Shown: positions 7,441-43,444 of the stretch, piece after piece | Position numbering within the stretch: position 1 is the first letter of the stretch | Layout: each line of letters opens with the position of its first letter | NCBI GenBank assembly: GCA_019236735.1 | Contig: JAFAIM010000011.1 | Coordinates: forward strand, 1-64,000 | DNA: 64,000 bases | From: Burkholderiaceae bacterium | Lineage (GTDB): Bacteria; Pseudomonadota; Gammaproteobacteria; Burkholderiales; Burkholderiaceae_F | Direction: 5' to 3' | Made by a program: the position numbers and the translations under genes | The notes under the pieces: generated by a model | Told to the model about the DNA's origin: nothing | What the model saw: only the letters and a program-made list of their open reading frames with translations | Databases searched by the model: none

Positions 7441-8655
7441 ATGTCTTCCCCTTCCCTATTCGGACAGGTCGAACTGGCTCCGCGCGATCCGATCCTCGGG
7501 TTGACCGAGGCCTTCAACTCGGACCCTCGGCCGGGCAAAGTGAACTTGGGTGTCGGCGTGTACTACGACGAGCAAGGGCGCATCCCGCTGCTCGAATGCG
7601 TGCGGGCCGCCGAGCGTGCCCGGCTGCAAGCGCCCTCGCCGCGCGGCTACCTTCCGATCGAAGGGCCGCCGGCATACGCCGCGCAGGTTCAGCCCCTGCT
7701 GTTGGGAGCGGACTCCGAGGCGATTGCTTCGGGTCGCTGCGTGACCGCCGAGGGGCTGGGCGGGACCGGTGCGCTGCGAATCGGCGCAGAACTGGTCAAG
7801 CGGCTGCGCCCGGCTACAAAAGTGCTGATCAGCGAACCGAGCTGGGAAAACCACCGCGCCCTTTTCGAGGCGGCTGGCTATGCGGTGAGCGCCTATCCGT
7901 ACTACGACGCGGCCACCCACGGTCTGAACCTGACGGGAATGCTGGCCGCGCTTTCGGCCGCCCAACCCGGCACGCTGGTAGTGCTGCACGCTTGCTGCCA
8001 CAACCCGACCGGAGTCGATCCGGACCCGGGCCAATGGCGCCGGATCGTCGATACGGTGCGCGAGCGCGACCTCGTTCCGTTCCTCGACATCGCCTATCAG
8101 GGCTTCGGCGAGGGGTTGGAGCCCGACAGCCTTGCCGTTCGCCTGTTCGAGGCCGCGCGGATCGACACACTCGTCGCCAGCTCCTTCTCCAAGTCCTTTT
8201 CGTTGTACGGAGAGCGAGTCGGGGCGCTGACGATGCTGACGGCCTCGCGCGACGCCGCCGAACGGGTCCTCAGCCAGATCAAGCGGGTGATCCGCGCGAA
8301 CTACTCCAACCCCCCGACGCACGGCGCCGCGCTGGTGACCGCAGTGTTGGCGAGCTCCGAGCTGCGCGATCAGTGGGCGCGGGAGCTTGGTGCGATGCGC
8401 GAGCGAATCCGTTCGATGCGTGAGCGCCTGGTCGACGGACTGGCAAAGCGCGGCGTCGCCACCGACTTCTCGTTTGTGCGGCGGCAGCGCGGCATGTTCT
8501 CGTACTCCGGACTGACTGCTGCACAGGTCGAGCAGTTGCGCGAACGCTTCGCCGTATACGCTGTCAGCACCGGCAGGATCTGCGTCGCCGCCCTGAACTC
8601 AGGCAACATCGACGCGGCATGCGACGCGATTGCCGCGGTACTGAAACCACACTGA
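7441..8655 (+). CDS. tyrB: Aromatic amino acid / aspartate aminotransferase
   Basis: Class-I PLP aminotransferase, probably transferring the amino group between tyrosine, phenylalanine or aspartate and 2-oxo acids. The product is 404 residues. The N-terminus (PRDPILGLTEAFNSD, then KVNLGVGVYYD) and the motif HNPTGVDP are typical of the AspC/TyrB subgroup. Lys251 in SSFSKSFSLYGERVG is the PLP lysine. Which substrate dominates cannot be settled by eye; AspC is the alternative. The gene is separated by 15 bp from the small endonuclease gene that follows on the same strand, so the two may share a transcript. Confidence 0.88.
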   Translation: MSSPSLFGQVELAPRDPILGLTEAFNSDPRPGKVNLGVGVYYDEQGRIPLLECVRAAERARLQAPSPRGYLPIEGPPAYAAQVQPLLLGADSEAIASGRCVTAEGLGGTGALRIGAELVKRLRPATKVLISEPSWENHRALFEAAGYAVSAYPYYDAATHGLNLTGMLAALSAAQPGTLVVLHACCHNPTGVDPDPGQWRRIVDTVRERDLVPFLDIAYQGFGEGLEPDSLAVRLFEAARIDTLVASSFSKSFSLYGERVGALTMLTASRDAAERVLSQIKRVIRANYSNPPTHGAALVTAVLASSELRDQWARELGAMRERIRSMRERLVDGLAKRGVATDFSFVRRQRGMFSYSGLTAAQVEQLRERFAVYAVSTGRICVAALNSGNIDAACDAIAAVLKPH

Positions 8656-8670
8656 CCCGAACATCCGGCG

Positions 8671-9093
8671 ATGGATTCGCGGGTCAAGGGCCTCAATCCA
8701 AAGTTCGTTGGAGACATCTCGCAGTCGATGATCATGGCGGCGCTGCTCAGGAACGGGTATCGCGTTTTGATGCCGTTCGGGGATAACTTTCGCTACGATC
8801 TCGTCGCGGAAGCCGACGGTGTTTTCCGTCGTATCCAGTGCAAGACTGGCCGAATTGCAGCGGGAGCCGTACGCTTTCCAGTGGCCTCGTCGCAATATCA
8901 CCGCGGTGGTAAGCGCGAGGACTATCGAGGGCAAATCGACGCGTTCGGAGTCTTCTGCCCGGATAACAACAAATGCTATTTGGTGCCGATTGGTGACCTT
9001 CCTCTCGTGCGCCAGGCCCACCTTCGAGTGACGCCAAGCCGCAATCGTCAGTCGAAAGGCGTGCGCTGGGCCCAAGAGTATGAACTGCAGTAG
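8671..9093 (+). CDS. Group-I-intron-associated PD-(D/E)XK endonuclease (homing type)
   Basis: A 140-residue protein resembling the PD-(D/E)XK family that includes I-SspI, the homing endonuclease in the tRNA-fMet group I intron of a cyanobacterium. Visible features: KFVGDISQS near residues 11-19; YRVLMPFGDNFRYDLV with candidate metal ligand Asp43; RRIQCKTGR with Gln56 and Lys58 forming the Q-x-K core; and a C-terminal KGVRWAQEY. Family members often have Glu in the first helix; here that place appears to be Gln18, so activity needs testing. It is freestanding, not inside an intron. It ends 12 nt before a tRNA-Asn gene that carries a group I intron, which is why I read it as the intron's mobility partner (inference). 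Confidence 0.82.
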   Translation: MDSRVKGLNPKFVGDISQSMIMAALLRNGYRVLMPFGDNFRYDLVAEADGVFRRIQCKTGRIAAGAVRFPVASSQYHRGGKREDYRGQIDAFGVFCPDNNKCYLVPIGDLPLVRQAHLRVTPSRNRQSKGVRWAQEYELQ

Positions 9094-9105
9094 AATGATT
9101 TCTCT

Positions 9106-9406
9106 TCCCCGATAGCTCAGTCGGTAGAGCGACGGACTGTCAAATGGCAGCACTGTGAGGAAACTCGCAGACGAAAAATCGGGTGAACTCAGGGAATGCC
9201 CCGCAAGGGAGAATCCTGAGCCAAGCCTGCCGAAGGACAAGCAGCGAGTAGGCAGGAAGGTGCAGAGACTAGAGGGTGAGCAGTCCGAGCAATAAACCTC
9301 GTCAGCGCCCGACACCCTAACAGGTCAAGCTGAGGGTGATGAGATAGTCCAGCGCGCGTGCGCTGTAATCCGCAGGTCCCTGGTTCGAGCCCAGGTCGGG
9401 GAGCCA
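9106..9406 (+). tRNA. tRNA-Asn(GUU), interrupted by a group I intron
   Basis: Exon 1 is 9106-9140 and exon 2 is 9366-9406; joined they give a 76-nt tRNA with encoded CCA. The acceptor stem pairs TCCCCGA with TCGGGGA. D-loop (AGCTCAGTCGGTAGAGC) and T-arm (CCTGG-TTCGAGC-CCAGG) are canonical. The joined anticodon loop reads CTGTTAA, so the anticodon is GUU. The gene is broken between the second and third anticodon bases. A likely -10 box, TAGAAT at 9091-9096, overlaps the stop codon of the upstream endonuclease gene. Splicing is required for a functional tRNA. Confidence 0.95.
9141..9365 (+). ncRNA. Self-splicing group I intron in tRNA-Asn (IC3-like)
   Basis: 225-nt intron. The 5' exon ends in U and the intron ends in G, as group I chemistry requires. 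P1 can form between exon CTGT (9137-9140) and internal guide GCAG (9147-9150), giving the U-G wobble at the splice site. P2 is CTGTGAG/CTCGCAG (9153-9170) with a GAAA tetraloop. P4 pairs CTCAGG (9188-9193) with CCTGAG (9215-9220). The R and S core elements GCAGAGACTAG and GAGATAGTCC form P7 through GACTA (9267-9271) and TAGTC (9345-9349). P9 is CAGCGC/GCGCTG (9350-9365), ending at the terminal G. The small size and layout resemble the Azoarcus tRNA-Ile intron. It contains no open reading frame of its own. Confidence 0.95.
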
Positions 9407-41554: not shown

Positions 41555-43444
41555 CTAGCGCCAGGCGCCGCGCAGCGCGGCAACCTGCTCTTGCAGCAGC
41601 GCAGGCGTGGCGAGCACCGGATCGACCGGGGCGCCTACCTCGATGCCGAGCGGCGAGAAAATCCTGCGAACGATCCGCAGCGGCCATGCAGGCCCCGGCG
41701 CGCGGCTGAACACCGAGCCCCACAAACCCCGCAGCGCCACCGGTATCACCGGCACCGGGTCGCTCTCCAGCACGCGCGTCACGCCCGGACGAAATGGGTA
41801 CAAATCGCCGGTGTCGGTGATGCGGCCCTCGGGAAAGATGCATACCAGCTGGCCGTCGCGCAGCGCCTCGGACACCTGCTCGAAAGCGCGCTCCATCACT
41901 TGTTCGTCGACCCGGCGCGAAGCGATCGGGATCGCGCGTGCGTCCCGGAACAGCCACGACATCACCGGAATGCGGAAGATCGTCACGTCCATCACGAAAC
42001 GGATCGGTCGAGGGCTGACCGCCATCAGCAGCAGCGCATCGACATACGAAACATGGTTGGACACGATCAGTGCCGCTCCGCGCTCCGGAATGTGCAGCGC
42101 GCCATTGGCCTGGATCCGATACAGCGTGTGCACCAGCAGCCACGACAGGAAGCGCAGCAGGAACTCCGGCATCAGTCCGTAGATGTAGATGGCCACCGCC
42201 GCATTCAGCAGCGCTGCTGACAGCAGCAGCTCCGGCACTCCCAGCCGCGCGAACCCCAGCAGCACGGCTGCGTACGCCGCTGCAACAATCATGAACAGCG
42301 CGTTGATGATGTTGTTGGCCGCGACAATGCGGGCGCGGTGCGTCGGGGCGCAGCGCGTCTGGATCAGTGCGTACAAAGGCACGCTGTACAGGCCGGCGCA
42401 GGCCGACAGCAGGAACACGTCGATCAGCACGCGCCAATGGCGGGCGTGTCCGACGAACTGCCCGAATGTCTGCATCGAGGCAACCGGCAGGCCCCGGCAT
42501 GCGAAGTACATGTCGATGCCGAACAGCGTCATTCCGATCGATCCGAACGGCACCAGCCCGATTTCGAGCATCCGGTGCGACAAGCGCTCGCACGCCAGCG
42601 AACCGATCGCAATACCGAGAGTGAACGCCGCCGCCAGCAGATTCGCCACCTGCGGACCTCCGCCCAGGGTTCCCTTGGCGAACAGCGGGAACTGCGTCAA
42701 GAGCAAGAAGCCGTAGAACCACAGCCACGAGATCCCGAGCAGCGACAGAAACACGGCCCGGTTTTCGCGAGCGACCTGAACGCTGCGCCAGGTGACTCGA
42801 AAAGGATTCAGATCGATTTTCAGGTCCGGTGCGGGTGCCGGTGTCGCCGGGATCCATTGACTCGTCGTCACGCCCGCGCACGCGAGGGCGACGCACGCAA
42901 ACGCGCTGTACAAATGGCCGTTGGGGCCGCTATCGATCAGAACCCCGCCCGCCAGGGTTCCCAACAGGATCGCGACGAAAGTCCCCATCTCGACCATGCC
43001 GTTGCCGCCGACGATCTCGGCGCGGTCCAGGTGCTGCGGAAGGTAGGCGTATTTGGCCGGTCCGAACAGCGTCGAATGCGTTCCCATCAGCAGCACGCAG
43101 ACCAGCAAGGTGCTGAAGCTATGGACCGCGAAACCCCAAGCACCAAGCAGCATGATTGCCAGTTCGAGCCATTTGACGGCGCGCATCAGGCTCGCCTTGT
43201 CGAACCGGTCCGACAACTGCCCGCTGGTGGCGGACAACAGGACGAACGGCAGGATGAACACGGCACCGATCAGATTGATCGCGGTCGCGGCTGGGATCTG
43301 CGAGTAGGCAGCTCCCTGATAGGTCACCAGCAGCGTGAAGGAGAACTTGAATACGTTGTCGTTGGCAGCGCCTAGGAACTGAGTCCAGAAAAACGGCGCG
43401 AAACGGCGCTGCCGCAGCAGGGTGAACTGGCCGCCGCCGATCAC
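41555..43444 (-). CDS. MFS transporter fused to 1-acylglycerol-phosphate acyltransferase
   Basis: 629 residues in two parts. Residues 1-425 are a 12-helix major facilitator resembling the lysophospholipid flippase LplT (start RFAPFFWTQFLGAANDNVFK). Residues 430-629 are a PlsC-type acyltransferase with the catalytic NHVSYVD box (His464, Asp469) and FPEGRITDTG (from 537). This resembles the LplT-Aas pathway but without the acyl-ACP synthetase part. The inferred role is flipping lysophospholipid inward and re-acylating it. Confidence 0.9.
   Translation of the reverse strand: MIGGGQFTLLRQRRFAPFFWTQFLGAANDNVFKFSFTLLVTYQGAAYSQIPAATAINLIGAVFILPFVLLSATSGQLSDRFDKASLMRAVKWLELAIMLLGAWGFAVHSFSTLLVCVLLMGTHSTLFGPAKYAYLPQHLDRAEIVGGNGMVEMGTFVAILLGTLAGGVLIDSGPNGHLYSAFACVALACAGVTTSQWIPATPAPAPDLKIDLNPFRVTWRSVQVARENRAVFLSLLGISWLWFYGFLLLTQFPLFAKGTLGGGPQVANLLAAAFTLGIAIGSLACERLSHRMLEIGLVPFGSIGMTLFGIDMYFACRGLPVASMQTFGQFVGHARHWRVLIDVFLLSACAGLYSVPLYALIQTRCAPTHRARIVAANNIINALFMIVAAAYAAVLLGFARLGVPELLLSAALLNAAVAIYIYGLMPEFLLRFLSWLLVHTLYRIQANGALHIPERGAALIVSNHVSYVDALLLMAVSPRPIRFVMDVTIFRIPVMSWLFRDARAIPIASRRVDEQVMERAFEQVSEALRDGQLVCIFPEGRITDTGDLYPFRPGVTRVLESDPVPVIPVALRGLWGSVFSRAPGPAWPLRIVRRIFSPLGIEVGAPVDPVLATPALLQEQVAALRGAWR

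Follow-up and report, generated by a model that had tools for sequence, protein, structure and literature searches.

A P7.1-bearing group I intron inside the anticodon of tRNA-Asn(GUU) in a Burkholderiaceae bacterium, next to a free-standing PD-(D/E)XK endonuclease gene

The tRNA-Ile(CAU) intron of Azoarcus is a small, ORF-less group I intron of subgroup IC3 that lies in the anticodon loop. Subgroup IC3 is without a P7.1/P7.2 hairpin between P7 and P3, a feature that is usual for subgroup IA. Bacterial tRNA group I introns have been listed for cyanobacteria and for alpha- and beta-proteobacteria (PMC4033280), and the tRNAscan-SE 2.0 paper places them in tRNA-Ile2 of Acidovorax and Burkholderia (PMC8450103). 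To judge from the title of Bonocora and Shub (2001; in PMC1995217), the type member of the I-Ssp6803I endonuclease family targets the anticodon region of tRNA-fMet. Collaborative homing has been described in cyanophage psbA and T7-like phages (PMC3984707, PMC10448857). The intron studied here resembles those of Azoarcus tRNA-Ile(CAU) and cyanobacterial and plastid tRNA-Leu(UAA) in that it is small and ORF-less, sits in the anticodon loop and has a short P5, a GNRA loop on P2 and the same style of P7-P9 core, but its host is tRNA-Asn, which it splits at 35/36, and it carries an added P7.1 hairpin; the direct comparison set comprised plain tRNA-Ile introns (L009, L012) and tRNA-Leu introns. With the tRNA-Ile2 introns of Acidovorax and Burkholderia (PMC8450103) it shares the bacterial order, a tRNA host and the property of being missed by tRNA finders, whereas those introns occupy a different tRNA at position 36|37 and use another internal guide sequence (IGS). 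The tmRNA T-loop group I introns (PMC11915505) follow the same boundary rules, and a P7.1 region occurs in that class, but their host is tmRNA and they hold LAGLIDADG nuclease genes inside the intron.

Within the window, by which we mean the whole 64,000-nt stretch analysed, the tRNA-Asn(GUU) gene on the plus strand consists of a 5′ exon (9106-9140; tRNA positions 1-35, last base U35), a 225-nt group I intron too small to encode a protein (9141-9365), and a 3′ exon that begins with U36 and encodes the CCA (9366-9406). The 5′ exon equals the first 35 nt of the intact tRNA-Asn of six relatives, and the 3′ exon is likewise identical to that of the intact relatives. Joined, the exons give a tRNA of 76 nt whose 7-nt loop, CUGUUAA, contains the anticodon GUU; its sequence is 100% identical, junction included, to intact tRNA-Asn in six genomes of the same order. 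The insertion point is thus between anticodon bases 35 and 36, and because the empty site is identical in six genomes, the boundaries are fixed independently of the rules for intron ends. In group I introns, the U before the intron pairs with a G in P1 and the last intron base is a G (PMC11915505); here U9140 ends the 5′ exon and pairs with G9147, and the intron ends with G9365. Rfam model RF00028 covers 9131-9365 with 58.2 bits (gathering score 50, E 3.5e-12). A sequence-only reading of this DNA had proposed that a group I intron with boundaries at exactly 9141-9365 separates the second and third anticodon bases of tRNA-Asn(GUU), and had named a covariance-model search as a check. The RF00028 match and the empty site confirm the intron and its host, and the identity of the empty site together with the U and G rules confirms the boundaries to the nucleotide. 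Without intron detection, ARAGORN reported a tRNA-Ser as its only call in the window. A weak -10-like box, TAGAAT, lies at 9091-9096 (plus strand) in front of the tRNA, its TAG being the stop codon of the endonuclease gene described below; TATAAT stands at the same place in the intact relatives compared and TAGAAT in G129, and a promoter scan returned no full sigma-70 site for the interrupted tRNA-Asn.

All the helices expected of a group I core could be drawn. P1 pairs CUGUC (9137-9141) with the IGS GGCAG (9146-9150), with the wobble pair U9140.G9147 at the 5′ splice site. P2 (9153-9170) is capped by a GAAA loop, and P3 comprises 7 bp (9179-9185 with 9306-9312). P4 (9188-9193 with 9215-9220) is continued by a short P5 without P5abc, a 3-bp hairpin (9199-9201 with 9207-9209), and P6 (9221-9222 with 9259-9260) by P6a (9226-9231 with 9251-9256). 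P7, the guanosine-binding helix, joins GACUA (9267-9271) to UAGUC (9345-9349); P8 spans 9313-9338, and the P9 hairpin with the terminal guanosine (omega-G, 9365) spans 9350-9365. P1, P2, P4, P7 and P9, which had been named from the letters alone, were all recovered, and P3, P5, P6, P7.1 and P8 were found in addition. Over the four tRNA-Asn introns of this kind, 99.1% of the helix cells were paired, and pairing fell to 35-42% when the partner strand was slid by 1-3 columns. Nine pairs were changed on both sides, against a shuffle mean of 4.5 and none of 500 shuffles as high. The compensatory changes back P2 (two-sided in 5 of its 7 pairs), P5, P6a, P7.1 and P9, and the exons, the core and the P1 pairing are conserved in the four genomes.

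P7.1, formed by GAGG (9272-9275) and CCUC (9297-9300), belongs to a 32-nt insertion between P7 and P3 (9272-9303). In 24 of the 28 lineage members the helix is kept despite an altered sequence, as GAGG/CCUC, GGGG/CCCC, GCGG/CCGC or CCUG/CAGG; four tRNA-Ile inserts were cut short by the P7.1 parser and were left out of this support. The total P7.1 helix length was matched by none of 500 shuffles. No P7.1 was present in the tRNA-Leu introns examined, in two plain tRNA-Ile introns or in the intron of G241. The intron had earlier been labelled IC3 by its resemblance to that of Azoarcus. The short P5 without P5abc agrees with this label, which is nevertheless incomplete because the intron has the 32-nt P7.1 hairpin and groups with other P7.1 introns in a clade of their own (100/100). 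It is therefore an IC3-like intron with P7.1 rather than a plain IC3 intron.

The same intron occupies the same site in G001 (same genus; contig VBCK01000123), in G129, which belongs to another family of the same order, and on MERI01000180/MESE01000068. Searching with a model of the P7-P7.1-P3-P8-P7 segment revealed the P7.1 lineage in 23 of 369 genomes of the class. Its other hosts, with exons read by eye, are tRNA-Ile2(CAU), tRNA-Thr(UGU) and tRNA-Lys(CUU), all interrupted after position 36. The tRNA-Ile2 cases with P7.1 come mostly from the class outside the order, those within it being G226, G233 and G436. The guide tracks the host (GGUG for CAU, GCAA for UUGU, GGCAG for CUGU), although a clear U.G pair is not evident in the single tRNA-Lys case; in most lineage members, then, the guide sequence is rewritten for each host. 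The odd 35|36 site may reflect a guide that reads U-G-U: the last base of this triplet is position 36 in tRNA-Thr(UGU) and position 35 in tRNA-Asn. Among the individual loci, L077-L093 and L065-L067 represent the class-wide P7.1 introns of tRNA-Ile2(CAU), several of which lie downstream of a sequence that resembles the 3′ end of rpoD; L072, L073, L075 and L076 are lineage introns after position 36 of tRNA-Thr(UGU), and L074 is one after position 36 of tRNA-Lys(CUU).

In the tree, the four P7.1 tRNA-Asn introns form one clade (99/95) inside the P7.1 clade (99/96; 100/100 without L130). Descent of the tRNA-Asn introns from tRNA-Thr introns was considered because their guides differ by one base, but the tree sets the Asn clade apart from a Thr+Ile+Lys group, a placement that is only moderately supported, so the jump may have gone in either direction. 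That all five tRNA-Asn introns share one origin is disfavoured by an AU test (p 0.023, with L130 on a long branch). The intron pattern had no match in viral contigs, and the pattern match at L029 was a chance coding match. Other group I introns were seen along the way: the genome under study has a second one, without P7.1, in tRNA-Leu(UAA) (L062, 2659-3011 on contig C15), G001 likewise has a tRNA-Leu(UAA) intron (L019), and one contig of G122 carries two group I matches with no tRNA around them (L007, L020).

The draft of the host genome (3.32 Mb, 95 contigs, 95.4% complete) yielded 38 standard tRNA matches, none of them tRNA-Asn; its tRNA-Asp(GTC) is intact. In this draft the spliced sequence matched its own two exons; the only other matches were weak ones to a tRNA-Lys and to chance stretches. 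No intact tRNA-Asn was found in G000, G001, G129 or G241, and three GNCTGTTAANCC matches in G001 and G129 proved not to be tRNAs. Draft genomes could miss a second tRNA-Asn; G129, however, is a complete one-contig genome with the same intron. The search for an intact copy elsewhere, proposed with the original reading, came back empty both in the 95.4% complete draft and in the complete G129. The draft yielded no tRNA-Asn besides the interrupted gene, whose splicing should therefore be essential.

Directly upstream lies a gene on which the sequence-only reading was silent. At 8671-9093 (plus strand), a free-standing gene for a 140-aa PD-(D/E)XK homing endonuclease of I-Ssp6803I type ends 12 bp before the start of tRNA-Asn. 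Its product matches PF11645 (PDDEXK_5; E 1.9e-39) and PDB 2OST (E 8.8e-9), the only solved structure matched, whose entry names the molecule just 'putative endonuclease' and which we take to be I-Ssp6803I. D43, Q56 and K58 align to 2OST, keeping the D...QxK positions, and are presumably equivalent to its catalytic residues; in the homologue of G241, R replaces the active-site K. Compared with I-Ssp6803I, which is encoded within the tRNA-fMet intron of Synechocystis, the family (PF11645) and the D and QxK positions are the same, but here the gene stands outside the intron, upstream of the tRNA.

The next gene upstream encodes an aminotransferase (7441-8655, plus strand; PF00155). Synteny shows its position ahead of intact tRNA-Asn to be conserved among relatives: in many family members the intact tRNA-Asn directly follows this same gene and the nuclease is absent. 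The nuclease was found in only 3 of 300 genomes of the order (our genome, G129 and G241), and in all three it stands beside an interrupted tRNA-Asn; our genome was the starting point of the search, which leaves two independent cases. The pair occurs at two different loci. In G129 the nuclease precedes the interrupted tRNA-Asn among other neighbours, whereas G241 has it at the aminotransferase locus, with a reading frame that continues into the tRNA 5′ exon. The tRNA-Asn of G241 is likewise split at 35|36, but by another group I intron, which lacks P7.1 and has an altered P7 yet shares the IGS GGCAG (RF00028 49.9 bits, E 6.6e-12). Remnants of the nuclease were seen in other carriers, namely a 41-aa tail in L026/L023 and, in G001, only QEYELQ followed by a stop, at the tRNA.

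Beyond the order, three further genomes of the class have members of the nuclease family with E values no higher than 1e-6. Two of them carry the gene within an insertion of about 660-675 nt that splits tRNA-Arg(UCU) (L150, 415-1165; L151, 1161-1895) and has no Rfam group I match at the gathering score; in the third, a free-standing copy closely precedes an intact tRNA-Arg(UCU). Among five tRNA-Arg(UCU) introns of Omnitrophota/Elusimicrobia (L022, L024, L025, L028, L030), three hold a PD-(D/E)XK gene, and in some Omnitrophota the nuclease family is found within tRNA-Arg introns. The loci that a pattern scan had returned from these phyla were rejected as tRNA-Asn cases, being tRNA-Arg(UCU) introns with GTAATCCG inside the intron. 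A nuclease search of viral contigs and plasmids gave no match. Homologues from phages are free-standing beside tRNA-Ile (My1), tRNA-Val (Sf-FR1) and tRNA-Asn (HSTV-4, and SM5 by ARAGORN, which calls Asn(GTT) for a tRNA that the record labels tRNA-Met); the homologue of HATV-2 has no tRNA near it. In the phage loci L131, L144, L145 and L147, PD-(D/E)XK genes lie directly beside or overlap tRNA genes.

From the intron anatomy, the empty site, the gene count, the nuclease adjacency and the series of decaying nuclease genes that we observed, we infer splicing, a cleavage target and homing, and consider it highly probable that a self-splicing tRNA-Asn intron and homing by the adjacent nuclease together explain this locus. 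As to mechanism and ALTERNATIVES, the anatomy makes it nearly certain that the intron would remove itself from the pre-tRNA. Transcription would yield a precursor tRNA in which the intron separates U35 from U36 in the anticodon loop; at the 5′ splice site the guide GGCAG would pair with CUGU(C), an exogenous guanosine bound in P7 would cleave after U35, and U35 would then be joined to U36 past the terminal G of the intron, giving a normal tRNA-Asn. The intron, having no protein of its own, would have arrived by homing via the neighbouring free-standing endonuclease. The latter, to judge from its position, probably recognises the uninterrupted anticodon region of tRNA-Asn, which the intron destroys; it would cut intronless alleles, and repair would copy the nuclease gene and the intron in together. 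After fixation the nuclease would decay, and the remnants in L026/L023 and G001 are what decay after homing would be expected to leave, although an intron without a working nuclease in L026 and G001 fits a nuclease without a role as well.

The use of this 35|36 site by a second, different intron, together with the position of the nuclease beside an interrupted tRNA-Asn in three of three genomes, suggests that the nuclease may target this site and mobilise whichever intron sits there ('collaborative homing'). As in the phage systems, a free-standing nuclease gene adjoins an ORF-less intron, but here the setting is a bacterial chromosome and a tRNA gene, and cleavage at the intron site is putative. 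The chances seem evenly balanced for a wider scheme of tRNA-based bacterial collaborative homing, in which the nuclease would fix the 35|36 target, at least two unrelated introns would have used it independently, and the lineage would move between tRNA-Ile, tRNA-Thr, tRNA-Lys and tRNA-Asn by rewriting its guide. Reverse splicing may be the source of the jumps between tRNA species.

The main competitor concerns the nuclease, which might be an unrelated neighbour, the intron having come by reverse splicing or by transfer of a whole tRNA gene and the adjacency being coincidence or old hitch-hiking. Two of the four P7.1 carriers have nuclease remnants only, no such nuclease was found within about 1.5 kb of the tRNA-Ile, tRNA-Thr and tRNA-Lys introns of the lineage, and the changed IGS between hosts fits reverse splicing as the route from tRNA to tRNA. 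Such a coincidence would nevertheless have to account for a nuclease that is so rare in the order yet accompanies an interrupted tRNA-Asn each time, and does so at two distinct loci, for the exact site common to two unrelated introns, and for remnants exactly at the tRNA in other carriers. We regard this explanation as unlikely, though it deserves to be kept in mind.

The remaining alternatives concern the tRNA itself. ARAGORN with intron detection did find the locus but called it tRNA-Asp(gtc), and in tRNA-Ile, tRNA-Thr and tRNA-Lys the introns of this lineage follow position 36; an intron after position 36 here would make the product tRNA-Asp(GUC), with the loop CUGUC|AA. This would require the 5′ splice site to carry a C and the last intron base to be U rather than G, and the 218-nt intron drawn by ARAGORN leaves an 83-nt molecule. 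Exons joined at 35|36, by contrast, reproduce intact tRNA-Asn genes, and the genome has an intact tRNA-Asp(GTC) elsewhere and no tRNA-Asn. Contradicted by both splice-site rules and by the empty-site identity, the tRNA-Asp product is very improbable. That the insertion is decayed and non-splicing, in a dead tRNA gene, is extremely improbable, given that this is the only tRNA-Asn gene found and that exons, core and P1 are conserved in four genomes with compensatory changes. An assembly or binning artefact could be suspected in a draft of 95 contigs, but the same arrangement recurs in contigs of other assemblies, a one-contig genome included, and we consider its probability negligible.

A self-splicing tRNA-Asn intron thus remains our preferred reading, and what is new here is the host gene tRNA-Asn with its insertion site, the P7.1-bearing sublineage and the free-standing nuclease partner. 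The earlier suspicion that no tRNA-Asn group I intron had been described held in the literature searched, in which few subscription journals were represented; in the same literature we found no report of a tRNA-Thr group I intron and reports of tRNA-Lys introns from cyanobacteria only. Hence tRNA-Asn joins the tRNAs interrupted by group I introns, and the relatives add tRNA-Thr and tRNA-Lys for the proteobacteria. Because the site inside the anticodon is unusual and the gene is the only tRNA-Asn found, annotation tools give a missing or a wrong tRNA, in this case tRNA-Asp. The loci also make up a series provided by nature: members of one nuclease family are free-standing, decayed or inside tRNA introns, and two unrelated introns share one target. 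Such a series lends itself directly to testing how endonucleases become associated with group I introns. Elsewhere in the window, on the minus strand at 42665-42786, there is a match to the Bcj11 sRNA family (49.9 bits against a cut-off of 49).
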